Below are positions 2,151 through 19,974 of a stretch of 64,000 nucleotides of DNA, piece after piece; within the stretch, counting starts at the first letter, position 1, and every line of letters begins with the position of its first letter. Source of the stretch: an uncultured Clostridia bacterium (GTDB lineage: Bacteria; Bacillota; Clostridia; Oscillospirales; Acutalibacteraceae). The DNA lies in assembly GCA_947632045.1 (NCBI GenBank), contig CANRNQ010000008.1, positions 1-64,000 on the forward strand, in the 5' to 3' direction. Below the pieces are notes generated by a model that saw only the letters and a program-made list of their open reading frames with translations, was not told where the DNA came from and ran no database searches. The position numbers and the translations under genes are program-made.

Positions 2151-3440
2151 TTAATCGACCTTATCTGCTTTCAAAACTGCGTTAAGCATAACTGTTGCAC
2201 CGCTTGTGCAGTGTTCAGGATAAGAAAATTCCGGTTCACAATGTGATAATCCATCTTTAGACTGAACAAATATCATTGTGGTTGGAATCATATAGGCACA
2301 GAACTGAGCATCATGACCGGCGCCTGAGTGAATATACTGATGAGATACGCCTATTTCTTCTGCAGCTTCTTTTACATATGAAACAAGCTCTTTATCCCAA
2401 TAAACGGTATCTCTGTTCCAAGCCTTTTCCACTTCACATCTGCAACCGTTCCATTCCTTTTCGGCGCAGGACTTTACAATGGCAAGAACCTTTTCAAGCA
2501 CTTCAGGCTTCTCATGCCTTGCATCAATAGAAAAATCAAAGAAGTCCGGTACACAGGTATGTACGCATGGATGACATACAACCTCGCCGGTTGTGTACAC
2601 TAAATCCGATATACCTAACTTATCAATTTCTTCGTGAATATAGCAAAGAGCTAACGAAGCTGCATAGAACGCATCTCTTCTCTTTGGCATCGGAAATGTT
2701 CCTGCATGAACTGTCTGTCCGTAGAATCTAACTCTGTAGTTAAACATACCCAAAACACAATCAACTACACCGATATCGTTTCCTGCATCTTCAAGAATCG
2801 GACCCTGTTCAATGTGAGTCTCAAACATACACTTGTAATTATCAGGTGAGATTCTATACTTTTTATCTCCTTTATAACCTGATTTTTCAAGTGCTTCACC
2901 AAAGGTTGATTTGTTATCAAGAATAGATTTCGATTTCATCATATCCTCAAATTTAAACTTTCCTCTGATATCCTCCGGAAGATAATCATAACAAATAATT
3001 CCTGAACACATCATAGCCGGCGGATATAAAGAACCTTCCTCGTTAGTCCAAATCATAGCTGTTAGAGGATGTTTATGTGGAATATTCTGCTCAACTACAG
3101 TTTCTAAAACCTCCATAGCTGACATAACACCCAATATACCATCATAGTTACCACCATTTTTAACTGAATCAACATGAGACCCCATAACGATTCTTTTTAA
3201 TGACGGATCGCTGCCGTTAATAGTAGCATACATACAGCCTACATCATCGACCTCGATAGTTGCCCCAATAGCGGTCATTCTTCTCTCAAATTCATTTCTT
3301 GCCTGCAAGGCTGCCGGCGAAAGTGAATACCTCGTAATGCCACCGTGTCCTGCATCGCCAAACTGTGAAAAGGTTGCAATTTTATCCTTCATTCTTTCAA
3401 GACTGCATTTATACATATTGTATATCTCCTTTACTGCCAT
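2151..3440 (-). CDS. Zn-dependent hydantoinase/carbamoylase-family amidase (N-carbamoyl-beta-alanine / allantoate amidohydrolase type)
   Basis: M20-like motifs GSHVDSVKNGGNYDG, MIWTNEEGS, ETHIEQGPILE, HSGAGHDAQ. Confidence 0.9.
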   Translation of the reverse strand: MAVKEIYNMYKCSLERMKDKIATFSQFGDAGHGGITRYSLSPAALQARNEFERRMTAIGATIEVDDVGCMYATINGSDPSLKRIVMGSHVDSVKNGGNYDGILGVMSAMEVLETVVEQNIPHKHPLTAMIWTNEEGSLYPPAMMCSGIICYDYLPEDIRGKFKFEDMMKSKSILDNKSTFGEALEKSGYKGDKKYRISPDNYKCMFETHIEQGPILEDAGNDIGVVDCVLGMFNYRVRFYGQTVHAGTFPMPKRRDAFYAASLALCYIHEEIDKLGISDLVYTTGEVVCHPCVHTCVPDFFDFSIDARHEKPEVLEKVLAIVKSCAEKEWNGCRCEVEKAWNRDTVYWDKELVSYVKEAAEEIGVSHQYIHSGAGHDAQFCAYMIPTTMIFVQSKDGLSHCEPEFSYPEHCTSGATVMLNAVLKADKVD

Positions 3441-4588
3441 AACTTATTATAAATTGATTTTACATTGTCAACGGTACATTCTTTTATCGTATTTGCCGGT
3501 GAGCCGGAATTAATTGCATCCTGTGCCATCTTATCCACGACAGCCATAAAGTCGGTTCTTTTTATTCCGTATTCACTCAATGTTGGTACCCCGCATTCTT
3601 TACACAGCCATTCTATACCCTCAATGAATTTATTAGACGCTGTAACGTCATCATCTGTCAAATCAGCAGCACCACAAGCTCTGCCTAATTGAGCAAATTT
3701 ATTATAAGCACCATCCACTGCAAATCTAAAACATTCAGGTAATAGCATTGCATTGCTTAACCCATGCGGAATATGGAACAAGGCCCCTATAGGTCTGCTC
3801 ATGCCATGAATAAGGGTAACTGATACATTGTTAATGCAAATTCCCGCTTCAAGCGCGGCAATAGCCATTTGATTTCGGGCAGCTATATCTCTTCCGGTCT
3901 TACATACGATTGGAAGATATTTGAAAATTCTGCTAACTGCCGATAACGCCAATACATCTGTCAATGGCTGAGCTTTTTTTGAAGTAAAGCTCTCGGCTGC
4001 ATGACAAAAAGCATCCAGACCCGCAGCTACAGTAATTGATTTTGTAGATGTAACAGTAAACTGTGGATCCACTAATGCATAATCAGGAACAAGACAATCT
4101 CCCGCAAGAAGCATTTTTATATTTCTTTCTGTATCTGTAATTACAGTAAATTTTGTAGCCTCACTACCTGTACCCGCTGTTGTTGGAATAGCTGCCATAG
4201 GATAATTGCACTTCTCTATTGTTTTACCTAAATAGTCAAAGATTTTACCGCCATTTGATACAATAGCATTAATCGCCTTCATTGAATCAATAGGACTGCC
4301 GCCTCCAAATGCTATCATAAAATCAAAGCTGCCATTAGTCTTGAAGCATTCAACGCCAGCCTCTATCATTTTGTCAGTTGGCTCGCCGCAGATTTCCGAA
4401 AACACTTTGTATTCTATACTAAGACTGTCAAGAAAATCTGTAACCGGTGTAAATATTTCAAGATTTACCACAGTTGGTCCTGTCACAATAAATGCTCTTT
4501 TTCCAAGTCGGGCAATATCAGGCCGAGCCCTTTCCAAGGCATTATAACCAGTAAATACTTTTTTTGGCATTGCAAATGAATATCCCAT
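3431..4588 (-). CDS. Iron-containing alcohol dehydrogenase
   Basis: Motifs FGGGSPIDSMKAI, PTTAGTGSEAT, GLDAFCHAAES, HGMSRPIGALFHIPHG. Confidence 0.9.
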   Translation of the reverse strand: MGYSFAMPKKVFTGYNALERARPDIARLGKRAFIVTGPTVVNLEIFTPVTDFLDSLSIEYKVFSEICGEPTDKMIEAGVECFKTNGSFDFMIAFGGGSPIDSMKAINAIVSNGGKIFDYLGKTIEKCNYPMAAIPTTAGTGSEATKFTVITDTERNIKMLLAGDCLVPDYALVDPQFTVTSTKSITVAAGLDAFCHAAESFTSKKAQPLTDVLALSAVSRIFKYLPIVCKTGRDIAARNQMAIAALEAGICINNVSVTLIHGMSRPIGALFHIPHGLSNAMLLPECFRFAVDGAYNKFAQLGRACGAADLTDDDVTASNKFIEGIEWLCKECGVPTLSEYGIKRTDFMAVVDKMAQDAINSGSPANTIKECTVDNVKSIYNKLWQ

Positions 4589-4598
4589 AACTTACCTC

Positions 4599-5921
4599 TT
4601 AAAGTGTTTTATCAACCTCTGATAAAATTTCATCAACCTTCGTCATTTCTTCCTTAACCTGTTCCGGCGTAATAATTAGCGGCGGTGAAACAAAAATCAT
4701 ATTTTCATGACTGTATGTCATAAATCCCTTTGATTTAAGCATACCTACAATTTTGCCCATAACTCCATCCGGATCTTTGCCATATGGTACAAGCGCTTCC
4801 TTTGTCGTTTTATCCTTAACCAGCTCAATTGACGAGAATAAGCCGATATATCTTACATCACCAACGCAAGGATGATTAGACTTTAGCTTTTCAAGCTCAT
4901 CGGCTAATACCTTGCCGGATTTATTTACATTCTCAAGTATATTATTCTCCTTATAGAAATTTAAAGTTGCAACACCCGCGGCGCAGGCAAGAGGATGTCC
5001 ACTGTATGTAAGTCCGCATGACAGCTGATTATCATCAAAAAATTCTGCAATTTCAGTTGACACAGCCACACCGCCAAGCTGAACATAACCAGAGGTTACA
5101 CCCTTTGCAAAGGATACTAAATCAGGCTTTACATCAAAGTTTTCAAATGCAAACATTTTACCTGTTCTGCCAAACCCGGCCATTACCTCATCGCAAATCA
5201 TTACTATTCCGTACTTATCGCACAGCTTTCTAACACCCGGCAAATAACCCTTCGGAGGAATAATTACACCGTTTGAACCTGTTATTGTTTCCATTACAAT
5301 ACAAGCAATGTTATATGGGTTTTCATAGTTGATCTGTTCCTCAAGCTTTGCAAGATAATAACTTGCAGCAGCCTCCTCTGATTCAAATTCAATAGGTTCA
5401 CGATAAACGTAAGGATCAAAAAACTTTACAAATCCCGTAATACCCGGCTCTAATGGGTATCGTCTTGGCTCACCTGTAAGATTGCCCGCGCCAAACGAAG
5501 AGCCGTGGTAGCTTCTATATCTCGAAAAGACCTTTTGTCTGCCGGTGTACATCTTTGCGATTTTTATTGCGTTTTCATTTGCATCAGCACCGGCATTGGT
5601 ATAAAAAATTTTCCCAAAGTTATCCGGAAGTAAATCAATTAACATTTCAGAGAGCTCTGCTCTTGGCTCTGAGCCGTATGCAGGTGAGAGATAACAATAT
5701 TTATCAACCTGCTTTTTGATTGCTTCCTGAACCGGAACACAGTTATGACCTATATTTAGATTTACAAGCTGGGCAGACATATCTGAATATCTGTTTCCAT
5801 CGAAATCCCACATATAAATTCCGTCAGCCTTTTCGATAGGAATAGGATTAAGACCCCTTTGCTTTGACCATGACTGCAGACAGTATTTAGTTTGTTTTTC
5901 CTTTATTTCTAAACCATTCAT
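4599..5921 (-). CDS. Class-III PLP aminotransferase (omega-amino acid / beta-alanine type)
   Basis: Motifs DEVMAGFGRTGKMFAFE, KGVTSGYVQLGGV, SYHGSSFGAGNLTG. Confidence 0.9.
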   Translation of the reverse strand: MNGLEIKEKQTKYCLQSWSKQRGLNPIPIEKADGIYMWDFDGNRYSDMSAQLVNLNIGHNCVPVQEAIKKQVDKYCYLSPAYGSEPRAELSEMLIDLLPDNFGKIFYTNAGADANENAIKIAKMYTGRQKVFSRYRSYHGSSFGAGNLTGEPRRYPLEPGITGFVKFFDPYVYREPIEFESEEAAASYYLAKLEEQINYENPYNIACIVMETITGSNGVIIPPKGYLPGVRKLCDKYGIVMICDEVMAGFGRTGKMFAFENFDVKPDLVSFAKGVTSGYVQLGGVAVSTEIAEFFDDNQLSCGLTYSGHPLACAAGVATLNFYKENNILENVNKSGKVLADELEKLKSNHPCVGDVRYIGLFSSIELVKDKTTKEALVPYGKDPDGVMGKIVGMLKSKGFMTYSHENMIFVSPPLIITPEQVKEEMTKVDEILSEVDKTL

Positions 5922-5942
5922 ATAATAGCCTCCATAAAATCA

Positions 5943-7406
5943 TTATCTTATTTTAGGAAATCGTTTTCCTTTGCTAATCGCACTAACAGGACATACAAGC
6001 ATACATAGCTGGCATCCTACGCAATTTGGATTAAGCGATACCTTGCGCGATTCGCTGTCCCAATCAATAGCTTGATGACCGGCGTCATAACAGCTTAAAT
6101 AGCACCTGCCGCAGCCTATGCACTTTTCGTTATCAAAAATCGGAGTTTCAATCGTACTACGATCCAGCTTATCTGCGGTTACAATATTTTCTATCGCTAT
6201 ACCCCTGAAATCTTCGATTGATTTATAGCCTTTCTCGGCCATATACGACTTCATACCGCTGATCAGATCATCAATTATTCTATATCCGTACTGCATAACC
6301 GCTGTCGTAATTTGGACATTTCCACATCCAAGCAATATGTACTCTACTGCATCCTTCCAGCTTTCAATGCCACCGATTCCACTTAGCGGTATGTCCTTTA
6401 GTTTTGGACAAGTCGCCATATCGTGAATAAATCTAAGTGCAATAGGCTTGACTGCTTTTCCGGAGTATCCTGAGACTGAGCTTTTTCCACTAACCTCCGG
6501 TTTTGAGCAGTTGTTATCAAGATTAATATCCGTAATACTTTTTATAGTGTTTATAGCTGCAATTCCGTCTGCTCCCGCCTTTACAGAAGCATAGGCCGGT
6601 ATTTCCATATTGCCTAAGTTTGGCGTCATCTTGCTTAAAACAGGCACTCCGGAATTTTTCTTTACTATCTTTGTGTAATGGGCAACAAGCTCAGGATTTT
6701 GTCCTACATCTGAGCCCATCCCCTCTGCCGCCATCTGTGGACAGCTAAAGTTACACTCGATAATATCGCAGAACTCTGAAAAGGTCTTTGCAAGATATGC
6801 CCATTCTTCATCGTTTTGACCCATAATAGACGCAACAATAACCTTGCCCGGATAGTCCTCCTTGAGCTTTTTTAGATAGTTTATATTCTCCTGCAAGCTA
6901 TGATCGGAGATTTGTTCAAGGTTTCTAAAGCCGATAAACGGAGTCCCCTCTTTACCATTGGCGAAAAATCTTGGTGAAACCTCGTCCGGAATATAGATAC
7001 CTACAGTTTTGAACACTATACCTGCCCATCCCATATCAAGAGCCTTTGCACACATCTCGTAATTTGATGCTACAACAGATGAAGATAGAAAAAACGGATT
7101 TTCACACTTAACCCCCATAAAATCAATAGAAAGATCAACATCGTCAGCCACCAAGGGCTCTATCATTTCATCTGACATTTTCTTTAGCTCACGAATCCTA
7201 ATCGGCATATCAGGATGTATGCAGGCTCTTTCGCAAGCACCACAGGCTACACAATCGGCCATAAAATTTGGTGCATTGTATGTATTTTCAAATCTAAGGC
7301 TTCTTATAAATTTATCCGGTTGCTGTCCAAGGTTACAAGCATTTGTACAAGAAGCATCGTGACAAAGCAAACATCTTGCGGACTCTTGAGAGAAAGTAAA
7401 GCTCAT
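5943..7406 (-). CDS. preA: Dihydropyrimidine dehydrogenase PreA-like, with N- and C-terminal Fe-S segments
   Basis: PreA core (SIDFMGVKCENPFFLSSSVVASNYEM, ECNFSCPQM). C-terminal CIGCGRCYLSC...CVGCQLCMLVCP. N-terminal CLLCHDASCTNACNLG...CVACGACERACIHP. Start taken at MSFTF. Confidence 0.9.
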   Translation of the reverse strand: MSFTFSQESARCLLCHDASCTNACNLGQQPDKFIRSLRFENTYNAPNFMADCVACGACERACIHPDMPIRIRELKKMSDEMIEPLVADDVDLSIDFMGVKCENPFFLSSSVVASNYEMCAKALDMGWAGIVFKTVGIYIPDEVSPRFFANGKEGTPFIGFRNLEQISDHSLQENINYLKKLKEDYPGKVIVASIMGQNDEEWAYLAKTFSEFCDIIECNFSCPQMAAEGMGSDVGQNPELVAHYTKIVKKNSGVPVLSKMTPNLGNMEIPAYASVKAGADGIAAINTIKSITDINLDNNCSKPEVSGKSSVSGYSGKAVKPIALRFIHDMATCPKLKDIPLSGIGGIESWKDAVEYILLGCGNVQITTAVMQYGYRIIDDLISGMKSYMAEKGYKSIEDFRGIAIENIVTADKLDRSTIETPIFDNEKCIGCGRCYLSCYDAGHQAIDWDSESRKVSLNPNCVGCQLCMLVCPVSAISKGKRFPKIR

Positions 7407-7433
7407 AACATCACTCCTAAAAACCTTCAATAC

Positions 7434-8801
7434 TTATTTTGTTTTATGTCGGTGTGGCGCTCTCTTTATGAATTTGCCCATACCTTTCTCACCAACGAAC
7501 TCACCATTATCATATACCAGATGTCCTCTAAGATATGTTTGCACAGGGTAGCCGTGAATTGCCTTGCCTTCCCAAATGGTATGATCATAATCAGAATGCA
7601 TATTATCAACTGAAATTGTAAAGTTTTTATCCTTGTCGTATAATACAATATCGGCATCCTTGCCAATGTCAAGGGAGCCTTTGCTTGTACATCCAAAGAT
7701 GCTGGCCGGATTAGCGCAGCAGATTTCAACTACCTTGTTAAATGAAATTACACCATCATTAGCCTTTCCAAGCATATACGGGTACATATTTTCAATACCG
7801 GCGCAACCATTAGGAATTTTTGTAAAGTCATCCTTACCCCAATCCTTTTCGTGCTGTTGGAATGGACAATGGTCGGTAGCAATAGTATCAATGTCGCCTC
7901 GCTTAATAGCTGCCCATAGAGCATCCTGCGACTCCTTTCCTTTCATCGGAGGAGAGCATACAAAGTTTCTGGCATCATCTCGTTTATATACATCTGATGT
8001 AAACTCTAAATACTGAGGACAGGTCTCGGCATATATGGCATAACCTTCTTGTTTTGCTTTGGTAACAGCCTCTACACCCTGTTTATTTGCCAGATGAACT
8101 ATATATAAGGAAGTATTAAGTGATTTTGCCCACTGAATTGCTCGCTCGTCCGCCTCGCCCTCAACCCATTCCGGACGAGAAGCATAATGATACCAGGCGT
8201 CAGTTTTGCCTTCAGATATGAACTTTTTGCAAAGCATATTTACCATATCGTTGTTCTCGGCATGAACCCCGATTAATGCACCACAGCTTTTTGCCTTTTC
8301 CAACACCTGATAAAAAACACCGTCGGTTACACCAAAATCATATACCATAAACACCTTAAACGAAGATACGCCATAATCTACCGCATCCTTCATTGTGTTA
8401 ATTAAGTCTCCATGTACATCCTTTACTCCAATATGAAACGCATAATCCGAGGCTGCTTTTGGGGCACAAAGTGCATCTCTTCGTTTGATGGTATCGACCA
8501 TGGACTCATCAAAATCCTGAAGTGCAAAATCAAAAACTGTAGTTGTGCCGCCGCACACAGCCGCTCTTGTACCGGCGAAGTAATCATCCGCAGAGATTGT
8601 ACCGCCAAACGGCATTTCTAAATGCGTATGCGCATCAATAGCACCGGGAAGTACAAGCTTGCCTGATGCATCCACTGTTTTTGCGTTATTGTCGCATAGG
8701 TTTTCACCTATAGCAACAATCTTTTCGTTTTCTACGCCAATATCAGCCTTGTAGGTCTGTGTAGGTGTGACAATAGTACCATTCTTAATTATTAAACCCA
8801 T
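7434..8801 (-). CDS. hydA: Dihydropyrimidinase / D-hydantoinase
   Basis: Motifs VLPGAIDAHTHLEMPFGG, SFKVFMVYD, GVHAENND, TIATDHCPF. Start MGLIIKNG with RBS AAAGGAGG. Confidence 0.93.
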   Translation of the reverse strand: MGLIIKNGTIVTPTQTYKADIGVENEKIVAIGENLCDNNAKTVDASGKLVLPGAIDAHTHLEMPFGGTISADDYFAGTRAAVCGGTTTVFDFALQDFDESMVDTIKRRDALCAPKAASDYAFHIGVKDVHGDLINTMKDAVDYGVSSFKVFMVYDFGVTDGVFYQVLEKAKSCGALIGVHAENNDMVNMLCKKFISEGKTDAWYHYASRPEWVEGEADERAIQWAKSLNTSLYIVHLANKQGVEAVTKAKQEGYAIYAETCPQYLEFTSDVYKRDDARNFVCSPPMKGKESQDALWAAIKRGDIDTIATDHCPFQQHEKDWGKDDFTKIPNGCAGIENMYPYMLGKANDGVISFNKVVEICCANPASIFGCTSKGSLDIGKDADIVLYDKDKNFTISVDNMHSDYDHTIWEGKAIHGYPVQTYLRGHLVYDNGEFVGEKGMGKFIKRAPHRHKTK

Positions 8802-8822
8802 AACAATTCCTCCTTTATGTTT

Positions 8823-8868
8823 AGCCTGATTCAATAGTCAAAGATACATTTGGCTATTGAATCAGGCT
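8823..8868 (-). promoter_or_regulatory. Strong intercistronic hairpin directly upstream of the hydA RBS
   Basis: AGCCTGATTCAATAG/CTATTGAATCAGGCT (15 bp, extendable inward), no U-tract. A second hairpin TTCAATTCG/CGAATTGAA lies adjacent. Confidence 0.55.
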
Positions 8869-8921
8869 TCAATTCGCCCCTTTAGGACGAATTGAAACCT
8901 ATTTTGTGATTAGAAGAAAGC

Positions 8922-10076
8922 TTAATCAACGCCGTTGCTCGCTGCCCATTCATTTTTATAGACAAGAACAAGACCTGAACGCTGGAAGACCTGAGCAACC
9001 TCTACAAGATCCATACCGCTTGCGTTTGCACTGATAAGGTTAGATACCCATGTTACGCCAAAATCAACAGTACCATTTGAAACGGCTGTTGTTTCACCAA
9101 CATCGCCACCGCCCGGAACAATATCGCTATCCTTAACATCTAAGCCGACCTCCTTATAGTAGCCCTTGTCAAGTGCAACATAATATCCCATAAACTGTGC
9201 ATCCGGCAACCACTTAAGCTGAATGGATACCTCCTTCTTTTCCGGCTTAAATGAAGGTGTTTCATTGCTATTTAAAAGCTCGATAACATCTTTGATGAAT
9301 GTATCATTATAAACATCTTCCGTTGTCATATTCTTTAGTTTATCTGCAGCAGTTGAATCATCTAAAACCATATATTTCTTACAAAGGTCAAGCGTCTGCT
9401 GTACTGCGTTCTTATCGATTGAGCCATATGCGCTTGAGTCAACCGTGTTGCCGCTCATATCAGTTGAAACCAGCTTTGCGGACTCATCAGCCATATACGC
9501 CTGATGGTCAGGGGATACAGAAGAGCCATATTTGTAACAGATTTCAGCAGCTTCTTTTGTATTTGCACATGCATATGCCCAACCCTTCATAGAAGCATAT
9601 ACAAACGCCTTAACTGTTTCCGGATTCTTTTCCGCAAAGTCTTTTGTACAGAATAGCATGTCCTCAAGCATTGCCACGCCTTCTTCATTCATATCAATAA
9701 CTGATACTGTATCTCCGTAATTATAGCCGCCATCGTAGCTGTTCTTTACAAGACCAAGCTCGTTATATGTCATTGCCGATGCAAGCAAAATTTCATCTGT
9801 GTCGAAGCCGTCCATATCGAATGCCTGAGATATATATGATGTATCGTAACCATACTTCCGTAATAGCGCCTGAATTTCATACTCGTTGCCAAGACCCCAG
9901 TTACCTACTGCACCTTCCGCAGCAGCCATAAGCTTAGCTGTTTTGCTTTCGGCTGATGTTGAGGCATCGGAGGAAGCGCTTGAAGATGTATCGCCGGAAC
10001 ATCCAACAAATGACGCAGATGCCATTAATGCCGCCGTCATTAGTGCTAATACTTTTTTTGCATTTTTCTTTTTCAT
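8922..10076 (-). CDS. ABC transporter substrate-binding lipoprotein, NMT1/THI5-like
   Basis: Lipobox signal (SASFVGCSG); IQLKWLPDAQFMGYYVALDKGYYKEVGLDV typical of NMT1/SsuA/ThiY-like proteins. The ORF-track protein, read on the minus strand, lists this segment toward its C-terminus. Confidence 0.85.
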   Translation of the reverse strand: MKKKNAKKVLALMTAALMASASFVGCSGDTSSSASSDASTSAESKTAKLMAAAEGAVGNWGLGNEYEIQALLRKYGYDTSYISQAFDMDGFDTDEILLASAMTYNELGLVKNSYDGGYNYGDTVSVIDMNEEGVAMLEDMLFCTKDFAEKNPETVKAFVYASMKGWAYACANTKEAAEICYKYGSSVSPDHQAYMADESAKLVSTDMSGNTVDSSAYGSIDKNAVQQTLDLCKKYMVLDDSTAADKLKNMTTEDVYNDTFIKDVIELLNSNETPSFKPEKKEVSIQLKWLPDAQFMGYYVALDKGYYKEVGLDVKDSDIVPGGGDVGETTAVSNGTVDFGVTWVSNLISANASGMDLVEVAQVFQRSGLVLVYKNEWAASNGVD

Positions 10077-10122
10077 AATAATACTCCTTTTTCCAAAAAA
10101 TATAGAATTTATATGTAAGAAC

Positions 10123-10956
10123 CTACTGCTTTTGGCGGTTCTTTAACATAACTGATTCAAAAATCATAAGCACTACAAATAATGTTATGCCAAGCAAACA
10201 TGCTATTGCTATATATGACCATGCTGCTGAATACTGACATTTTAAAATAGTATCTCTGATCATTCTGCCAAGACCCGGACAAAATGTTGCAGAACCCTCT
10301 CTGGTATCAATAAAGTATTCTGATACCAACGCACTGATTACAGAAATCGGAACTGAAACTCTTAGTGCCGTAAAAATATAAGGAACGCTGTTCGGCAGCC
10401 TTAGCTTTACAAAGGTTACCCTTTTACTGCTTGCGTAGGATTTCATCATATCGGTTGAAAATGGCGGAAGCTCAGTAAGTCCTCTAAATGCATTTATGCT
10501 CATTGAAGCCATACAAAGCATCATAACAACTAAAGCCTTTGCTGCCATTCCTCTGGTACCTATGTCAGTTGAAACGTGCTTGCACAAATTATTGAATATA
10601 GGAGCTAATGCGACTATGGGAACCGCATTAAAACAGCTTACTAATGTTATTCCGCCGCCGCCCCATTTGGTAAAGATACTGGCAATAACTGCAACGGCAT
10701 AACCAAGAGCTGAACCTACCGCCAAACCGATTAATGTAGGAACAGTAGTTATCCAAAGGTTACCCATAAGCTTTGTGATGTTTTCTCCGATAACGCTTGC
10801 TATCTTTGATGGAACAGGTAAAACATCTGTTGACGTATTCATGATTGAGTGCAGAATTTGAGTTTCCCACAGCACAAATATTATTACACCAAAAAGCACC
10901 GGATACATAACAGAAGAAATCATTCTACACTTTCTGGATTTTAAAAAATGTCTCAT
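10123..10956 (-). CDS. ABC transporter permease (SsuC/TauC/ThiX-like)
   Basis: Multispanning BPD-type inner-membrane protein, 4-nt overlap with the next permease. Confidence 0.87.
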   Translation of the reverse strand: MRHFLKSRKCRMISSVMYPVLFGVIIFVLWETQILHSIMNTSTDVLPVPSKIASVIGENITKLMGNLWITTVPTLIGLAVGSALGYAVAVIASIFTKWGGGGITLVSCFNAVPIVALAPIFNNLCKHVSTDIGTRGMAAKALVVMMLCMASMSINAFRGLTELPPFSTDMMKSYASSKRVTFVKLRLPNSVPYIFTALRVSVPISVISALVSEYFIDTREGSATFCPGLGRMIRDTILKCQYSAAWSYIAIACLLGITLFVVLMIFESVMLKNRQKQ

Positions 10957-11792
10957 CCCTTGTCACCCCTCTTTAACTTTCTGTTTATTCTTTGCAGAGG
11001 AGATACCATATTTTCTATCATACCCATTAAATAAAAGCTGAAAATACCTACCGCAGCAGCTGCTATCACTATCTCCCAGAAAACATATATAGTTGTATTG
11101 TGCTTTAATGATTGAGACAATGCACAACCCAAGCCGCCGTCACCCTGCAGGGTATCAACAAGAATAGAAGCTGTAATTGCCATAGGTGCTGCTGTTTTTA
11201 ATCCTGTAAAGAAATAAGGAATACAGGTTGGGAACATTAGCTTCCAATATGTAACCGGGATTTTTGCGGCGTAATTAAACATTAACTGCTTTTGCTCCGT
11301 AGAAACAGACTTGAATCCTGCCAATGTATTTGCGGAAACAGGATAAAAGGTGAGTATAGCGGCAATTACCATTCGGCTTATTCCTATATCTCCTGTGAGT
11401 GCCAGAATAATTGGCGCCAAACCTAAAATTGGAATTACCTGAATAAGCATCAGGTACGGAAAAGCCACCTTTTCAACAATGTGACTTAAATTCATTAGTA
11501 AAGCTAGAATGAATCCTGCCGATAGACCTATAAGAAAGCCTATACCCGCCCTGGAAAGAGTAGCGCCGCAAGCCTCAAGAACTACCTGAAATGGAGTTTG
11601 CGTTGCTGTGGTTAGGTTAGTATCAAAAAAGGATGCGAATATCTGCCACATATGAGGGAGTATATACTCCGGATTTTGTATTTTAGGATTGTTCTCAACT
11701 AAAAATGCACCAAATTCCCAAAGCAGAAGAAATCCAATAATCCAAACCGAAGTAACCAGCCATTTTGGAGGGAACTTATGTTTTTTCCTCAT
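10953..11792 (-). CDS. ABC transporter permease (SsuC/TauC/ThiX-like)
   Basis: Paralogous BPD-type permease, same operon. Confidence 0.87.
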   Translation of the reverse strand: MRKKHKFPPKWLVTSVWIIGFLLLWEFGAFLVENNPKIQNPEYILPHMWQIFASFFDTNLTTATQTPFQVVLEACGATLSRAGIGFLIGLSAGFILALLMNLSHIVEKVAFPYLMLIQVIPILGLAPIILALTGDIGISRMVIAAILTFYPVSANTLAGFKSVSTEQKQLMFNYAAKIPVTYWKLMFPTCIPYFFTGLKTAAPMAITASILVDTLQGDGGLGCALSQSLKHNTTIYVFWEIVIAAAAVGIFSFYLMGMIENMVSPLQRINRKLKRGDKG

Positions 11793-11794
11793 AA

Positions 11795-12595
11795 CTACAC
11801 CTCCTCAAAGCTATTTCTAACTTTTAATACCAGCTGATTGAAAGCGACGTCTGTTTTCATTTCCGGCACTCTTGGTCGAGGCAGGGTTTCGTTTACATCA
11901 ATTATTGCTGATACTCTGCCGGGATGAGGAGATAAAACAACAATCTTGTCAGATAAATATACTGCTTCCTGAATATTGTGTGTAACAAATACAACAGTTT
12001 TATGAGTTTTTCTCCAGATTCTAAGAATGTCCTCGTGAAGCTTTTCCTTAGTGAACTCATCAAGTGCTGAAAATGGCTCGTCCATAAGTAATATCTCAGG
12101 ATTGATTGCCAATGCCCTAGCTATACCTACTCTTTGCTGCATACCACCCGATAGCTGTTGTGGATAATGGTTGGCAAAATCTGAAAGATTTACAAGACCA
12201 AGCATCTTGGTGCTTCTTTCTCTTCTATCCTCTTTCTTCCACTTCATTATTTCAAGGGGAAGTTCTACATTTTTCTGGACTGTTCGCCAATCAAAAAGCA
12301 CCGGCCGCTGGAACACTATGCCGTATCTTTGCTTTAGGCGAGCATCCTTTGGAGTTGTTCCGCCTACAATAACATTACCCTCTGTAGGATGAAGCAAATC
12401 TGCAATTATATTAAGAAGAGTAGATTTTCCACATCCGGAAGGGCCTAACAGTGCAACAAATTCGCCTTTTTTTACTTGTAGATTAATATCGGTAAGAGCC
12501 TTTACATCAGTACCATTATCCGCCTGATAGGTCATACTTACGTTTTCTATTGATATTTCAATATCATTTTTAACAGGTTCTTTGATATTTTCCAT
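11795..12595 (-). CDS. ABC transporter ATP-binding protein (nitrate/sulfonate/taurine type)
   Basis: GPSGCGKSTLL, LSGGMQQRVGIARAL, LLMDEPFSALD, VTHNIQEA. Start taken at MENIKEP. Confidence 0.92.
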   Translation of the reverse strand: MENIKEPVKNDIEISIENVSMTYQADNGTDVKALTDINLQVKKGEFVALLGPSGCGKSTLLNIIADLLHPTEGNVIVGGTTPKDARLKQRYGIVFQRPVLFDWRTVQKNVELPLEIMKWKKEDRRERSTKMLGLVNLSDFANHYPQQLSGGMQQRVGIARALAINPEILLMDEPFSALDEFTKEKLHEDILRIWRKTHKTVVFVTHNIQEAVYLSDKIVVLSPHPGRVSAIIDVNETLPRPRVPEMKTDVAFNQLVLKVRNSFEEV

Positions 12596-12670
12596 TTCAT
12601 GTCCTCCACACCGATTAATGAAATAATGCAATTTCAAACTTGCAATATTGCATTATTTAGCAAAAACAAA

Positions 12671-12700
12671 AAGGTGCTTTATACTAAGATAAAGCGCCTT
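12671..12700 (-). terminator. Intrinsic-terminator-like hairpin in the 5' leader of the ABC/pyrimidine operon (attenuator candidate)
   Basis: Minus strand AAGGCGCTTTAT-CTTAGT-ATAAAGCACCTT followed by TTTGTTTTTG, ~75 nt upstream of the ATPase start. Confidence 0.65.
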
Positions 12701-12908
12701 TGCTTAACTACAACTATCTTTTTGCTGATTTGAGAATATCACCGCAAAGCCCAAAAGTCAATGATTGTTGCAACAAATGGTTCAAAGATACTACTTGATA
12801 ATTCGATATAATTACTAACTACCTAAAATTAATTATTTAATGCTCTTAATTATCCATTTTGCAGGATTTGTATTGCTAAATTTCATTTTTGTGTTATAAT
12901 CAAGTAAA

Positions 12909-13716: not shown

Positions 13717-14319
13717 ATGAAGCATTTCGTTATTACCATAGGAAGAGAGTATGGTAGTGGAGGTTGTGAGATTGCCAAAAGACTTTCAAAGCTGCTTAAT
13801 GTAGAATACTATAACAACTACTTTGTTGATACCGCAGCGATAAAATTAGGGGTTACATCAGAAGCAATAGCTAAGCTCGATGAAAACCCGGATAAAAAGT
13901 TTATTAAGGACTTTGCCTCTCCTAATACAAAGGGTACTCCATCAAAAATTAAAGCAAAGGATGTTTATGAGCTGCAGAAAAAACACATTAAAGAGCTTGC
14001 CGAAAACGAGTCATGCATTATTGTTGGCAGATGTGCAGACTATATTCTAAGAGATAGAGATGATGTAATGAATATCTTTATTTACTCTCCGTATGAATAC
14101 CGAATCAGGCACATTATCGAAAGAGAAAATTGTACTGCTCAAGAGGCATCTGAAAAAATAGCACATATCAACAGGTGCAGACATAACTATCATAAGCTAA
14201 TCACAGGCAGCGTCCGTGGCGACAGAAAGCTAAGGCATATACTCATTGACTCAAGCTTTTTAGGCATCGAAGAAACAGCTGATATGCTTTATGAAATTAT
14301 TAAAAAGAAGTTTTCTTGA
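13717..14319 (+). CDS. Cytidylate-kinase-like family protein
   Basis: ITIGREYGSGGCEIAKRLSKLLNVEYYNNYFVD; SCIIVGRCADYILRD. Confidence 0.85.
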   Translation: MKHFVITIGREYGSGGCEIAKRLSKLLNVEYYNNYFVDTAAIKLGVTSEAIAKLDENPDKKFIKDFASPNTKGTPSKIKAKDVYELQKKHIKELAENESCIIVGRCADYILRDRDDVMNIFIYSPYEYRIRHIIERENCTAQEASEKIAHINRCRHNYHKLITGSVRGDRKLRHILIDSSFLGIEETADMLYEIIKKKFS

Positions 14320-14470: not shown

Positions 14471-15433
14471 TTATTGTTCACTATTCTCTGCTTTTCTGAT
14501 TATTGTGTAATCATCAGTCAGCTTAAAAAGTATTTGATTTGTGTATACAAGCTGTTTGTTGTTCATGAAGAAAACGTTTCCGTATTCCGGAGCTTTAATT
14601 TCCGCAAGTGTTTTCCCTTCATATGGATCAATTATTTTTGATATTACTTGTCCCTTAGAAACACTGTCACCCACCTCGCAAAGAGGTTGAAATATGCCTG
14701 CTATCGGAGTCTGAATGTCATACATTTCGTCTGCATTTATGACACTTGAATTATAGCCTCTGTGCATAGAGTAGTTTATGATTCCTGTTTGCGATAGGAA
14801 ATTAAGCACCGCATATACACCGATCATAGCCGAGTTTTCATCGAGATTTGCCGTTTCGTGAGTGTAAACCGAAAATGCCTTAGTACCCCACACCTGCCAG
14901 TTATAGTTTAGTGTAGTTGTATCAAATGGACGAGGATTTCTTTTTACTATATATTGCAGCCCAAACTTTTTCGCATCCTCAATACTTGTGTTTTCTGTCA
15001 TCATCATTCTTACATGCGGCAAGAATCTACCGGACATAAAGAATGATGCAAATTGAATACCATATTTGTAATCATTGATTTTTTCAAATACTCCGCCGGC
15101 AATTCGTTGTGTGGTTTCTCCTAAAGCGTAACCGGGGAACATACGGTTAATGTCGGTGTTATCAGTAGGCCAAAATCGTTTTTCAATGTTCATTGACGAG
15201 GTATTAATTGATGGTATTACCATAATGCTCTTACCATCATTTATAAGACCGGCCTTTTCTATTTTCTTTAGAGTTTTTACCAACAATCCACAGGTGAAAA
15301 GCTGTTGAATTTCATTGCCTCGTGTACTGCCAACAACACAAACGGATTTTTCACCCTCGCCAAACTGATAGCCTGTAACCCTCATATCATCACGATACAG
15401 GTTTTTCATCTCATACAGAATAGTCTTTTTCAT
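14471..15433 (-). CDS. Succinylglutamate desuccinylase/aspartoacylase-like protein, putative pseudoenzyme
   Basis: Aligns with the neighbour at 15430-16374, but the HGDE-equivalent reads STRGNE and the DIHAS-equivalent reads IQFAS. Confidence 0.75.
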   Translation of the reverse strand: MKKTILYEMKNLYRDDMRVTGYQFGEGEKSVCVVGSTRGNEIQQLFTCGLLVKTLKKIEKAGLINDGKSIMVIPSINTSSMNIEKRFWPTDNTDINRMFPGYALGETTQRIAGGVFEKINDYKYGIQFASFFMSGRFLPHVRMMMTENTSIEDAKKFGLQYIVKRNPRPFDTTTLNYNWQVWGTKAFSVYTHETANLDENSAMIGVYAVLNFLSQTGIINYSMHRGYNSSVINADEMYDIQTPIAGIFQPLCEVGDSVSKGQVISKIIDPYEGKTLAEIKAPEYGNVFFMNNKQLVYTNQILFKLTDDYTIIRKAENSEQ

Positions 15434-16374
15434 ATCTCATCATCCCTTTCAAGAATCCTCGCAATAAGCGAACCCTCGTCACATATTGGATATTCTCTTA
15501 AAGTAAATAGTATGCCATCGCAGGGGGATGTGATTTTATCAAGAATCTCGCCTGTTAGCGGGTCTACTATATCACCTACATAATCACCTTTTTTTAGCTT
15601 TCCCCAGTGCTTTGTGGCAGGAATAAACACACCTGCCGAGGATGCGTTAATAAAATTAACCTCAAAATCCTCATCATATGATACTATAGATTCACACACC
15701 TTATTTACTTCACCCGTCCACATTCCAAGCTCTTTCATTGTGTTTAGAATGCCATCAACAAGCTGGTTACCGTAGCTTTTGGTAATTCTCATACCAACTC
15801 CCATTTCTACAACAAGAGTTGGTGTACCGATATCATTTAAAGAATATGCAAGGGTACTTTCAAGCACAGTAGCGGCACTATGCACCCAGATAAAATTGAC
15901 ATTCATCATTTTGGCAAGAGGAACAAGCTCGTCCTTGGTGAGCTCATTTATTCGTATCTGCGGAATTTCCATAAGGAATATATTGCTTGCATGAATATCA
16001 ACGCACAAAGCACTACCCTTAATATCCTCCACTATTTTATGTGCCAAATAATCAGCCATTATACCATTCTCTGAACCGGGGAATATTCTGTTCATATCAA
16101 GGTCAAAGGCCGGAATACCTCTTGTTATAGAGTCTATGCCTAATGGATTAAGCGCCGGGTATATATCAACAATACCTTTCAGACACTCCGGATTGTTCTT
16201 TATTCTTCGGTTAAGCTCGTAGCAGATATACTGACCCTCAAGCTCATCTCCATGAGTACCCGTTACAATACTGATTCTTTTTTCGTTGCCCGTAGGATTC
16301 AGCGGCACTATTCTCTCTTTTTTTATAACCAATTCCTCGTCAATTGGAAGATTTACTGACGCTACCTTTATCAT
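15430..16374 (-). CDS. Succinylglutamate desuccinylase/aspartoacylase-family M14 metallohydrolase
   Basis: GTHGDELEG and CVDIHASN zinc-ligand motifs, VVEMGVGM. Start taken at MIKVAS. Confidence 0.85.
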   Translation of the reverse strand: MIKVASVNLPIDEELVIKKERIVPLNPTGNEKRISIVTGTHGDELEGQYICYELNRRIKNNPECLKGIVDIYPALNPLGIDSITRGIPAFDLDMNRIFPGSENGIMADYLAHKIVEDIKGSALCVDIHASNIFLMEIPQIRINELTKDELVPLAKMMNVNFIWVHSAATVLESTLAYSLNDIGTPTLVVEMGVGMRITKSYGNQLVDGILNTMKELGMWTGEVNKVCESIVSYDEDFEVNFINASSAGVFIPATKHWGKLKKGDYVGDIVDPLTGEILDKITSPCDGILFTLREYPICDEGSLIARILERDDEI

Positions 16375-16405
16375 CTTTCTACTCCTTATAAATATAGTAA
16401 ATAAA

Positions 16406-16428
16406 AAGCAGAGGGTGTGCCTCTGCTT
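16406..16428 (-). terminator. Intrinsic terminator after the transglutaminase gene
   Basis: AAGCAGAGG/CCTCTGCTT stem with U-run on the minus strand. Confidence 0.75.
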
Positions 16429-16453
16429 AAGTAAACTAAAAGCGGATGCATTT

Positions 16454-17293
16454 TTATGCGGTATGCTGTGTAACAAGAACAGATATTGTCTGCTGCTGTA
16501 AAGCTGAGTCCTTAAATATACCTTTGTTTACACTGCAATCTGCTGCATCTCTACCTGAGGATATTTTAATGTAATTTTTGTCAACTAATAGATTATTTGT
16601 CGGATCAAAGCCATACCATCTTTTATTCGAGAGCACCTCAACCCATGCATGAGTTTCACCCTCCCCGGATATCATTCCTACACAATATCTTGTTGGAATA
16701 TTGCGAAGTCTCAGAAGCGAAAGCATTATGTGTGAATAATCCTGACAAACCCCACACCTATTCTTTAACGCATACTCGGCTGTTGTCCCAACATCAGTTG
16801 AGCCTTTTTTGTATTTCATATCCTCGTGAAGTCTTCGCATTATATCAAGCGCGGTATTGTAGTTGTTTTCCAAATCAACATTCAAGCTTTCGCTGTAATT
16901 ATTTATGCACTCATAAGGCATGGTAAGCTTTGTCTGATATTTGAAAATGCCGTTCTGCACTTCATCTTCGCCTGTATCTTCAAATATTTCCATATCGGTA
17001 ATAGCAGTACCTGCGACCTCTACATCAAATTTGTTGTGTTCTGAAAATATACTGCCGCTCAGCACAATGTTGCCAAAGGAATCATAATGTGTGGTGAAAT
17101 TTTCTTCGCTGTTTATTTTAATGCCTATACTTTCAACTATCTGTCTTTGATTGTTGCAGGGAACACATTTTAAGGTAAAGTGGTGGTCTATAATATCTGT
17201 ACTGAAATCATTATGAAGTTTATAAGTAAAATCTAATTTATTGATAAAAATCTTCCTCTCATATTTGAAGGTTAAATATATCTTATTATACAA
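16454..17293 (-). CDS. Transglutaminase-like family protein
   Basis: Catalytic triad motifs GVCQDYSHIM (Cys), THAWVEV (His), YGFDPTNN (Asp). Confidence 0.9.
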   Translation of the reverse strand: MYNKIYLTFKYERKIFINKLDFTYKLHNDFSTDIIDHHFTLKCVPCNNQRQIVESIGIKINSEENFTTHYDSFGNIVLSGSIFSEHNKFDVEVAGTAITDMEIFEDTGEDEVQNGIFKYQTKLTMPYECINNYSESLNVDLENNYNTALDIMRRLHEDMKYKKGSTDVGTTAEYALKNRCGVCQDYSHIMLSLLRLRNIPTRYCVGMISGEGETHAWVEVLSNKRWYGFDPTNNLLVDKNYIKISSGRDAADCSVNKGIFKDSALQQQTISVLVTQHTA

Positions 17294-17336
17294 CTAAAAC
17301 ACCGGCAATTCAAATATGCAGAGACTATAATTTCGG

Positions 17337-18002
17337 CTATTCAAACAATTTGTAAAACAACAGCTTGCCAATGCTGTAATCAAAGTTAGGTTCTTGAAGC
17401 ATAGTTTTCAGTGTATCAAGAGCAATGGCGTTATGCTTCATGCCTATTTCATTTATTCGATTTTCCATTTTGGTAATTTCTCGGTAAATCACGTCTGTTG
17501 GTTTATCAATACTTAAATATAGATAAACCCTTTCAATTCGTTTACCGGCTCTGAGGGCGGCCTTTATTATCTGGTCATCCACCCTGTCATCCACACAACC
17601 CCAAAAGCCCATAATATGATCTACAACCGAATACAAATCCCAAACAGATGAATCTTTACTTTTTGCCCTCTGCATATCGTAAATTGCAAGCTGAATATAT
17701 GCCATGGTTTCGGTATCAATGTAATCACGCATAACAACTGCATTATCATAGGCTCTGTTAAGATTGCTTATTATTGAATTATAGTTGTTTTCGTTGTATG
17801 GAAAATCCTCAATAAAGTGCTTTGCATCATTGTAAACTTCCGGAATATCAATTCTTTTACACAAGTCCTTGTAAAAGGTATCATTTCCGTCTATGTAAGT
17901 ATCTAACCCCTCAAAGAAAATATGAATGGTGGAATTCACCCTTTCCGTGTATCGTCCAAGCCAGACAAGCCTGTCAAGATTTTCTAATGTGATAATACCC
18001 AT
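17337..18002 (-). CDS. Alpha-E domain-containing protein (COG2307)
   Basis: LENLDRLVWLGRYTERVNSTIHIFFEGLDTY; overlaps the ATP-grasp gene by 19 nt. Confidence 0.88.
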   Translation of the reverse strand: MGIITLENLDRLVWLGRYTERVNSTIHIFFEGLDTYIDGNDTFYKDLCKRIDIPEVYNDAKHFIEDFPYNENNYNSIISNLNRAYDNAVVMRDYIDTETMAYIQLAIYDMQRAKSKDSSVWDLYSVVDHIMGFWGCVDDRVDDQIIKAALRAGKRIERVYLYLSIDKPTDVIYREITKMENRINEIGMKHNAIALDTLKTMLQEPNFDYSIGKLLFYKLFE

Positions 18003-19297
18003 GTATCTTTAAATCCTCCTCCTTGAGAGCTGTTTACTATAAATGAATCAGGTATTCTTGAAAATCGTGTCAATCCGGACTTCCATACCTTAACATCTTT
18101 GCCATACAAAACAAAAGCTCGCAGGTCTGCTTTTCGTGGCACACGCTCTCCGTTTTCAAAAATATCTATATCCTTAAAGTCTATAACCTCTTGAGCAATA
18201 AATCTTCTTGGCTCAGATTTAATCATTGCAATAAACGTTTCTTTTTCTTCCTTTGTCAGCTTGCTGCCAAAAACAACACCGTATCCACCAGCCTCTGCAA
18301 CATCCTTAATAACCAGATTGTCAAAGTTATCGAGCACATATTTTCTGTCGTCCTCAAAGAAAGGAAGATAGGTCGGCGCATTATTTGTCAGACAATCTTC
18401 ACCCAGATAATACTTAATCATCTTAGGCACAAAATAATAGATACCCTTATCATCAGCAATACCGTTACCGGGGGCATTCAGCAGAGCTACATTGCCCTTT
18501 TTGTAGGCGGTAAATATGTGTGGGATACCAATCAAGCTATCCTCCTGAAAAGTCATTGGATCAAGGTATTCGTCACTGATTCTTCTGTAAACAGCTCCAA
18601 CTCTCTGTTTTTTACCATTGTATCCCAGATGGTAAAGATTATCATTTTCAACCACGAGGTCACTTCCTGTACACAGAACAGCACCTGTTTGCTCCGCAAG
18701 GTAGCTATGCTCAAAGAATGCGGCATTGTATCTGCCGGGTGTAAGAATGACATTAATTCCACCCTTGTTTACATAGTTCATTGTTTCCCGAAGCAAATCT
18801 GCGTAATCTCGGTTATCCTCGATTGAATTTCTGATAAAGGTTTCCGGTGAGCTTCTGCGGCAAAATTTTCTGGCAATCATAGGATATGATGCACCGGAAG
18901 GTACTCTTAAATTATCCTCTAAAATATACCACTTACCATCCTTGCCCTCTACCAAATCTATTCCGGAGATATGACTAAAAATATCTTTTGGCGGACATAT
19001 CCCATCGCACTGCTTCAAAAATCCCTTTGCTGAATACACAAACTCCTCCGGAATAATTCCATCCCTTACAATACTTTTCGCTCCATAAATATCCTTTAAA
19101 AACAGGTTGAGTGCAGTTACTCTTTGTTGCAGTCCCTTTTCAAGCATATCAAAATCTGATTTTGTAATTACTCTCGGTACAGGGTCAAACGGAAAAAGTT
19201 GTTCGTTAAATATTCCGTTTTTATAAATGCCAAACTTTACTCCATAACGAGCCAAAAGCTCATTTACGGTATCGGCGTAACTGTACAAAGCTTCCAT
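17984..19297 (-). CDS. Circularly permuted type-2 ATP-grasp protein (COG2308)
   Basis: GRYNAAFFEHSYLAEQTGAVLCTGSDLVVENDNLYHL; LVIKDVAEAGGYGVVFG; DLRAFVLYG. Confidence 0.9.
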   Translation of the reverse strand: MEALYSYADTVNELLARYGVKFGIYKNGIFNEQLFPFDPVPRVITKSDFDMLEKGLQQRVTALNLFLKDIYGAKSIVRDGIIPEEFVYSAKGFLKQCDGICPPKDIFSHISGIDLVEGKDGKWYILEDNLRVPSGASYPMIARKFCRRSSPETFIRNSIEDNRDYADLLRETMNYVNKGGINVILTPGRYNAAFFEHSYLAEQTGAVLCTGSDLVVENDNLYHLGYNGKKQRVGAVYRRISDEYLDPMTFQEDSLIGIPHIFTAYKKGNVALLNAPGNGIADDKGIYYFVPKMIKYYLGEDCLTNNAPTYLPFFEDDRKYVLDNFDNLVIKDVAEAGGYGVVFGSKLTKEEKETFIAMIKSEPRRFIAQEVIDFKDIDIFENGERVPRKADLRAFVLYGKDVKVWKSGLTRFSRIPDSFIVNSSQGGGFKDTWVLSH

Positions 19298-19331: not shown

Positions 19332-19367
19332 CGACGGACAAGAAAGTATGAACATCCTTGTCCGTCG
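19332..19367 (-). terminator. Terminator-like hairpin in the 5' leader of the ATP-grasp operon
   Basis: CGACGGACAAG/CTTGTCCGTCG (11 bp). On the minus strand followed by GCCTTTTTATTT and then the RBS of the ATP-grasp gene. Confidence 0.6.
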
Positions 19368-19377
19368 TTATGTAAGT

Positions 19378-19406
19378 ATAATATCATTTCGCAGATGAAA
19401 AGTCAA
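19378..19406 (-). promoter_or_regulatory. Sigma-70 type promoter of the ATP-grasp operon
   Basis: Minus strand TTGACT-N17-TATTAT. Confidence 0.6.
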
Positions 19407-19974
19407 GAAATTTGCAAGATTTATATCGTTTCCTGCAACGCTCAAAAGAATTATTAAGATTATCTCAATTATAATATGAATTATTGCATGATTTTCATTA
19501 TATTCTTGCATATTTTGATGCTTGTTGATAATGCAGGTTATTCTGTTTCATTAATATGGATTTGAAGCTTTTGTTCTTTTCTTTTACTATAATTTCATTA
19601 ATCAGCAGTCTTATATTTGCATCACTTATAGCCCCTCTTCAATGATTTGTTCAATAAGTTCAATGATACTCTTTCATTGCTCACAGCGAATATTGTCAGC
19701 CCGGCAAAGATAATAATGCTAACGAGGAAACATTAAGCAAGCTGACAAAAGAAAGCCTTGAAAAAAGCACGACGGCAAGGTGAGTGAAAATTCTCCTTGC
19801 CGTCGCTCTTTAAAATTGAGGCAAATGTAATATCTGTATCTTATTTGTAATTCTCCCTTATGCTATTATTCTACGAAGAAATTAAAAGAATCACAAATGT
19901 GCGAGTGAGAAATGTGTGTAACTGCCGATAAAACCTATATGAAAATAAGTCCGTTATTGACACTCGTACAAAAA

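Follow-up and report, generated by a model that had tools for sequence, protein, structure and literature searches.

The closest described relatives of the gene set considered here are the amidoligase modules that combine an ATP-grasp protein (COG2308), an alpha-E protein (COG2307) and a transglutaminase-like protein, attributed to Iyer et al. 2009 in the account given by PMC6376114. Expression of the homologous genes of Burkholderia cenocepacia falls by log2 6-9 in an ntrC mutant (PMC5491218), and PP_2686-2688 of Pseudomonas putida rise 11-15 fold under nitrogen limitation (PMC7801951). The module forms part of the Anbu operon (ATP-grasp, alpha-E, transglutaminase, Anbu), which is controlled by NtrC in both species. 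The present analysis concerns a 64,000-nt stretch of contig CANRNQ010000008.1 from an uncultured Clostridia bacterium (the window), in which the same three proteins are encoded in the same order at positions 14471-19297 of the minus strand. The locus differs from the described module in having a short alpha-E protein, two extra genes of the AstE/AspA group of M14 hydrolases (M14a and M14b) and an RNA leader of the ANTAR type. The ligase module and a link to nitrogen limitation are thus common to this locus and the Anbu operon, but here the hydrolase is an unrelated zinc-dependent M14 pair, and regulation falls to an RNA leader instead of NtrC.

The five genes are one operon, transcribed in the order ATP-grasp, alpha-E, transglutaminase, M14a, M14b. 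A preliminary description of this DNA had placed five open reading frames (ORFs) here and named the first three from the letters alone; all five were recovered at the same positions on the minus strand, and the names agree with Pfam (CP_ATPgrasp_2, 451 bits; Alpha-E, 53 bits; Transglut_core, 70 bits). The ATP-grasp ligase (17984-19297, 437 aa; COG2308, CP_ATPgrasp_1/2) is a close homologue of PDB 3n6x, with which it aligns over its full length, and its ligase-motif residues are invariant in 79-80 of 80 homologues. Its 3' end is overlapped by the alpha-E gene (17337-18002, 221 aa), whose product covers only profile positions 7-160 of 294 and retains the ER motif (E in 74/76 sequences, R in 76/76). 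The transglutaminase-like cysteine protein (16454-17293) matches PDB 3isr and keeps its catalytic Cys, His and Asp in 78/78 sequences. Its homologues begin at residue 15-17 of the window ORF, and for this reason the start probably lies near 17245-17251, at a non-ATG codon (ATT or ATC), the TTG at 17293 being doubtful. These three adjacent genes on one strand, with intact catalytic residues in both the ligase and the transglutaminase, have the composition of the COG2308/COG2307 module. In two distant lineages alpha-E and transglutaminase are fused as one protein (L177 7486-9024, plus strand, genome G562; L174 6061-7962, minus strand, genome G857), which supports a physical complex.

Conservation of the gene order ties the M14 genes to the ligase module. 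A profile of M14a run against 84,980 species genomes found at least 548 relatives, and the best 80 loci, chiefly from Lachnospiraceae and Ruminococcus-like gut bacteria, were compared. The fixed order of all five genes is seen in 80 of these 80 (71 complete, 9 cut by contig ends), a count over related genomes chosen by similarity rather than over independent events. Median gaps over the loci are -18 nt between ATP-grasp and alpha-E, then 14 and 2 nt, and -3 nt between M14a and M14b; in the window the M14b ATG overlaps the M14a stop. The same order also occurs in other classes of the phylum. Because the 80 loci were similarity-chosen, surveys of the order and the class give the fairer estimate of frequency. 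In the order, with the window's own genome excluded, the M14 pair is present in 16 of 16 genomes that have a close ATP-grasp gene; one further genome (G254) has an ATP-grasp gene only 42% identical and lacks the pair. Among 390 other genomes of the class, 14 carry M14b and 11 carry alpha-E, each of the 11 with M14b as well. The hypergeometric probabilities are about 8e-22 (order) and 5e-19 (class), with no correction for shared ancestry.

The preliminary description had proposed that amide-forming and amide-cleaving genes belong together here, and had suggested that the idea would fail if the M14 genes were not conserved with the ATP-grasp module elsewhere. It does not fail, because the M14 pair accompanies every close ATP-grasp or alpha-E gene surveyed, and the pairing of the two kinds of gene is upheld by both the gene order and the co-occurrence. 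The same description took a terminator between the transglutaminase and M14a genes as a sign of partial separation. The terminator-like hairpin is real (16406-16428, minus strand), but it does not show functional separation, because 60 of 80 relatives have no more than 20 nt between the two genes; a hairpin is present in only 4 of the 52 loci with a long enough gap, the window locus counted.

The two M14 genes had been described as two deacylases, and this requires revision, since only one is predicted to be catalytic. M14a (15430-16374, minus strand; ATG at 16374 rather than TTG at 16476) and M14b (14471-15433, minus strand) both match Pfam AstE_AspA_cat, at 73 and 32 bits, and their AlphaFold models (pLDDT 88.7 and 83.1) both match AstE/AspA-family structures. 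The zinc ligands H41, E44 and H128 of M14a and its catalytic E190 are invariant in 96/96 sequences, giving the HxxE...H site and catalytic Glu of the family. In fold, zinc ligands and catalytic Glu M14a thus resembles the known hydrolases of this group (DoeB/EutE, CphZ, aspartoacylase), but it stands in tandem with a dedicated paralogue that lacks the site. Of the three zinc ligands, M14b retains only the Glu: Arg (Arg38) replaces the first His in 84/84 sequences and the second His is missing. The catalytic Glu has become Tyr or Phe, again in 84/84. The D-x-NRxFPG substrate-binding motif is retained, as is the fold, for which CphZ and DoeB are the nearest matches; those of the M14a model are 3cdx, 2qj8 and the amide hydrolases DoeB and CphZ. 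Since two zinc ligands and the catalytic Glu are lost, activity of M14b is unlikely though not impossible, and the protein is best regarded as a putative conserved pseudoenzyme.

The order of these losses may be read from G985 and G1006, two genomes that belong to a different class of the phylum and carry a related operon with a full-length alpha-E. Their M14b has intact zinc ligands and Met in place of the catalytic Glu. In the tree M14a forms one clade (support 100/99), and M14b groups with the G985 and G1006 copies (79/57, moderate support only). This combination of residues and grouping suggests that loss of the general base of the paralogue preceded loss of its zinc site. Two variant arrangements were also seen: a second, lone M14a-like gene, 47% identical and without M14b (G272, L037 7298-8242, plus strand), and an M14b of 511 aa fused to a C-terminal SAM-dependent methyltransferase-like domain (G318, L176 5669-7204, minus strand).

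The regulatory context comes from the 5' leader of the operon, which carries a terminator hairpin at 19332-19367 (minus strand). Terminator-like hairpins lie 13-136 nt upstream of the ATP-grasp gene in 43 of 86 loci and in none of the shuffled sequences. In an alignment of 41 leaders, 95.7% of cells are paired and there are 91 double changes, a level that none of 500 shuffles reaches. The 5' arm of the leader conserves GAAC-AAAGGC-GTTC beyond what pairing requires, and can fold into a short stem closed by a loop of six bases, the first an A and the fourth a G. The terminator and this small hairpin are mutually exclusive, and the pairs of the latter covary as well (93.8% paired, 0/500 shuffles). 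In the window this element is GGAC-AAGGAT-GTTC at 19350-19363 (minus strand), overlapping the 5' arm of the terminator. A loop of the form C(A..G..)G overlapping a terminator, as expected of an ANTAR target RNA, is found in 48 of 84 leaders and in no shuffled one.

The small hairpin is an ANTAR-type hexaloop, and it closely resembles the 13-mer AGCAANGRRGCUY of the eut leaders, whose hexaloop likewise has A1 and G4 (Ramesh et al. 2012, PMC3369931). The eut, nas and ami leaders share this arrangement over the 5' arm of a terminator, in front of nitrogen genes, but the leaders described here have a single hairpin (P2) placed right after the predicted transcription start. A candidate promoter, TTGACT-17-TATTAT (19378-19406, minus strand), lies upstream of the leader hairpin, with about 10 nt between the two. 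It matches 10 of 12 positions and has a TG extension; promoter matches in the region as a whole are at chance level, and the leaders of relatives have a predicted promoter at the same placement. With start sites that are predicted only, most leaders leave little room between promoter and P2 for the first ANTAR hairpin (P1). Seven loci (L073, L088, L091, L111, L122, L128 and L131) have two or three tandem leader hairpins upstream of the ATP-grasp gene, and the missing second ANTAR hairpin could come from these. Another terminator-like hairpin, GCGACGGCAAGG...CCTTGCCGTCG, lies at window positions 19765-19815 (minus strand), about 450 nt farther upstream than the operon leader; it shares stem sequence with the leader and is without a clear hexaloop. 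The exact hairpin of the window leader has no further copies elsewhere in the genome. No Rfam family matches around the operon, and over eleven leader loci the sole Rfam match is a ureB sRNA at a urease gene.

In 22 operon genomes, a covariance model for which ATP-grasp leaders were the only input found, besides the operon's own leaders, 18 sites with E of 1e-4 or below, one of them at a contig end. Of the 17 readable sites, nine precede glnA followed by an ANTAR protein (3 sites), glutamine synthetase GSIII (3), amtB (2, as amtB-PII) and gltB (1). The remainder precede amino-acid ABC transporters (4, two of which run on into the five-gene operon), sodium/alanine symporters (2), a citrate synthase-isocitrate dehydrogenase (ICDH) pair (1) and the second window operon (1). 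Weaker sites include further glnA, amtB, GSIII and ICDH genes and one urease, mixed with unrelated genes; among fetched sites with E from 1e-4 to 0.01, about nine precede genes without a nitrogen link (for example obgE and rhamnulokinase). The leader also precedes the ATP-grasp gene in other classes of the phylum (G932, G1006). An ANTAR protein is encoded in 20 of the 22 operon genomes, that of the window included, where the ANTAR response regulator (L280 4010-4594, minus strand, G000:C7) adjoins carA rather than glnA. Membership of the five-gene operon in a nitrogen regulon is therefore well supported, and the leader, which the preliminary description had missed, places the operon in nitrogen metabolism.

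The best match to the leader model within the window is the second copy, at 12664-12705 (minus strand; 39 bits, E 2.3e-7), upstream of a neighbouring operon (2151-12637, minus strand). ORF calls and Pfam assign to this operon an M20 amidohydrolase, an iron-type alcohol dehydrogenase, a class III aminotransferase, a PreA-like dihydropyrimidine dehydrogenase, a dihydropyrimidinase and an NMT1-type ABC transporter, from which reductive pyrimidine or hydantoin degradation is predicted. In the NMT1-type binding protein (8922-10076, minus strand) the family matches occur in swapped order, the N-terminal half aligning with the end of the profile and the C-terminal half with its start; the gene may be permuted, two truncated halves may be present, or the assembly may be locally wrong. 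A Cytidylate_kin2 protein (13717-14319, plus strand) is a recurrent neighbour of the five-gene operon, in 9 of 106 loci examined. Other recurrent neighbours embedded in the operon are an amino-acid importer, an ArAE/FUSC-type membrane protein and a Peptidase_C26 hydrolase related to gamma-glutamyl-GABA hydrolase (PuuD-like), and extended operons add the importer, the Peptidase_C26 gene and a GABA transaminase. There is a likeness here to the Puu gamma-glutamyl-polyamine pathway, in which glutamate ligation, hydrolysis and transamination form a nitrogen route, and PuuD-like and GabT-like genes lie near the operon in some loci; the ligase, however, is of the CP_ATPgrasp type rather than the glutamine-synthetase-like PuuA, and the hydrolase is M14. 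The GABA transaminase and PuuD-like neighbours give no more than a hint of gamma-glutamyl or related amino-acid conjugates.

The reading that we favor, at slightly better than an even chance, is that gut Clostridia induce this five-gene pathway under nitrogen starvation, both making and hydrolyzing a small amide or isopeptide conjugate. When nitrogen is sufficient, the leader terminator would stop transcription; when it is short, an ANTAR response regulator would hold the hexaloop hairpin, and the operon would be read through alongside glnA, amtB, gltB and the amino-acid importers. The ATP-grasp ligase, with alpha-E as an accessory subunit, would couple an amine or amino acid to a carboxylate, for which glutamate or aspartate is the probable choice. 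By the chemistry of their families, the transglutaminase would move or trim the acyl group and M14a would cleave the resulting amide or isopeptide. M14b would have a non-catalytic part, probably in complex with M14a, providing structure or a site that binds carboxylates. As a whole, the pathway would conjugate nitrogen-rich small molecules, hold or channel them, and then release them as a nitrogen source. At the family cut-off, 23 of 24 operon genomes lack any proteasome-type gene, so that Anbu appears to have been replaced, M14a/M14b taking the hydrolase slot that it holds beside this module in proteobacteria and cyanobacteria.

Several observations weigh against this starvation-induced pathway. 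No sequence feature fixes the identity of the amide. In the leaders P1 is not evident, and the ATP-grasp leader of the window scores only 21 bits. There is no leader near the ANTAR gene of the window genome, and in one genome that has leaders (G311) an ANTAR gene was not detected. The operon is patchy in distribution, with no M14 pair in any of 5 congeners, and the pair occurs without the ligase in six genomes of one genus and in G480 and G552, so that a cycle of ligation and cleavage is not obligatory. Finally, G228 has both the ligase module and the M14 pair, about 25 kb apart. A more elaborate version can only be put forward tentatively: the operon would be a new nitrogen-scavenging pathway, in which an ATP-grasp/alpha-E/transglutaminase complex conjugates an amine or amino acid into an amide and an obligate M14 enzyme-pseudoenzyme heteromer releases it again. 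The single-hairpin ANTAR attenuator in control would also serve glnA, amtB, gltB, urease and the degradation of pyrimidines, and the pseudoenzyme would have evolved stepwise by loss of the Glu and then of the zinc ligands.

Some of these same observations would be expected if the ligase module and the M14 pair were two independent nitrogen-scavenging units with separate substrates, under a common promoter because each contributes to nitrogen supply. The separation in G228 and the lone M14 pairs fit this, as does G480, where L179 366-7742 (plus strand) encodes an amino-acid ABC transporter, a PucR-like regulator, a GABA transaminase, M14a and M14b, with the nitrogen leader before the transaminase; no leader of this kind was found in front of the lone pairs of genus g86. 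The order in the 80 loci, invariant over many genera and seen again in other classes, is nonetheless stricter than co-regulation requires, and independence is improbable. A cyanophycin-like role, in which the ATP-grasp ligase and transglutaminase build an isopeptide or small polymer as a nitrogen store and M14a/M14b degrade it as CphZ acts on beta-Asp-Arg, would suit the nitrogen regulon and the resemblance in fold of both M14 proteins to CphZ, which is strong for M14a. By sequence, however, M14a resembles CphZ weakly (26 bits, C-terminal part only) and scores higher with DoeB-like proteins, the ATP-grasp ligase is of the circularly permuted 3n6x type, and stores are usually made in nitrogen excess whereas this regulon looks starvation-induced. 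We regard storage as unlikely, although it deserves to be kept in mind.

Protein tagging has been put forward for the module where it occurs with Anbu (PMC6376114). Here the ATP-grasp ligase and transglutaminase would add a peptide or amino acid to proteins, to be taken off again by M14a/M14b, and the intact transglutaminase triad is compatible with this. Yet a proteasome-family gene (PF00227; Anbu/HslV) is absent at the cut-off from the window genome and from 22 of 23 other operon genomes, a conserved tag ORF was not found, and the neighbors are small-molecule importers, Peptidase_C26 and GABA transaminase; tagging thus seems a poor prospect here. A cassette for maturation of a ribosomally synthesized and post-translationally modified peptide (RiPP) would also use familiar parts, since graspetides are made by ATP-grasp ligases and the transglutaminase weakly matches a lasso B2 family, below the family cut-off. 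The preliminary description had seen no precursor peptide ORF, and a scan of more than 80 loci likewise found no conserved short ORF near the operon, the main recurrent short peptides being the starts of the operon's own genes. Nor is there a constant exporter or leader peptidase, so a RiPP cassette with an undetected precursor is largely refuted.

We know of no reaction that has been assigned to the ATP-grasp/alpha-E/transglutaminase module since it was predicted in 2009. The module now gains a fixed hydrolase partner, a nitrogen-starvation regulon and many culturable hosts (Mediterraneibacter, Butyrivibrio). Because two unrelated regulators (NtrC in proteobacteria and an ANTAR-type leader in Clostridia) and two unrelated hydrolases (Anbu and the M14 pair) converge on one ligase module, nitrogen metabolism becomes a concrete hypothesis for its function. 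The M14 enzyme-pseudoenzyme pair offers in addition an evolutionary series, in which the deeper-branching paralogue keeps its zinc ligands. A gene set that has lacked a role for more than ten years would thereby have a testable one.

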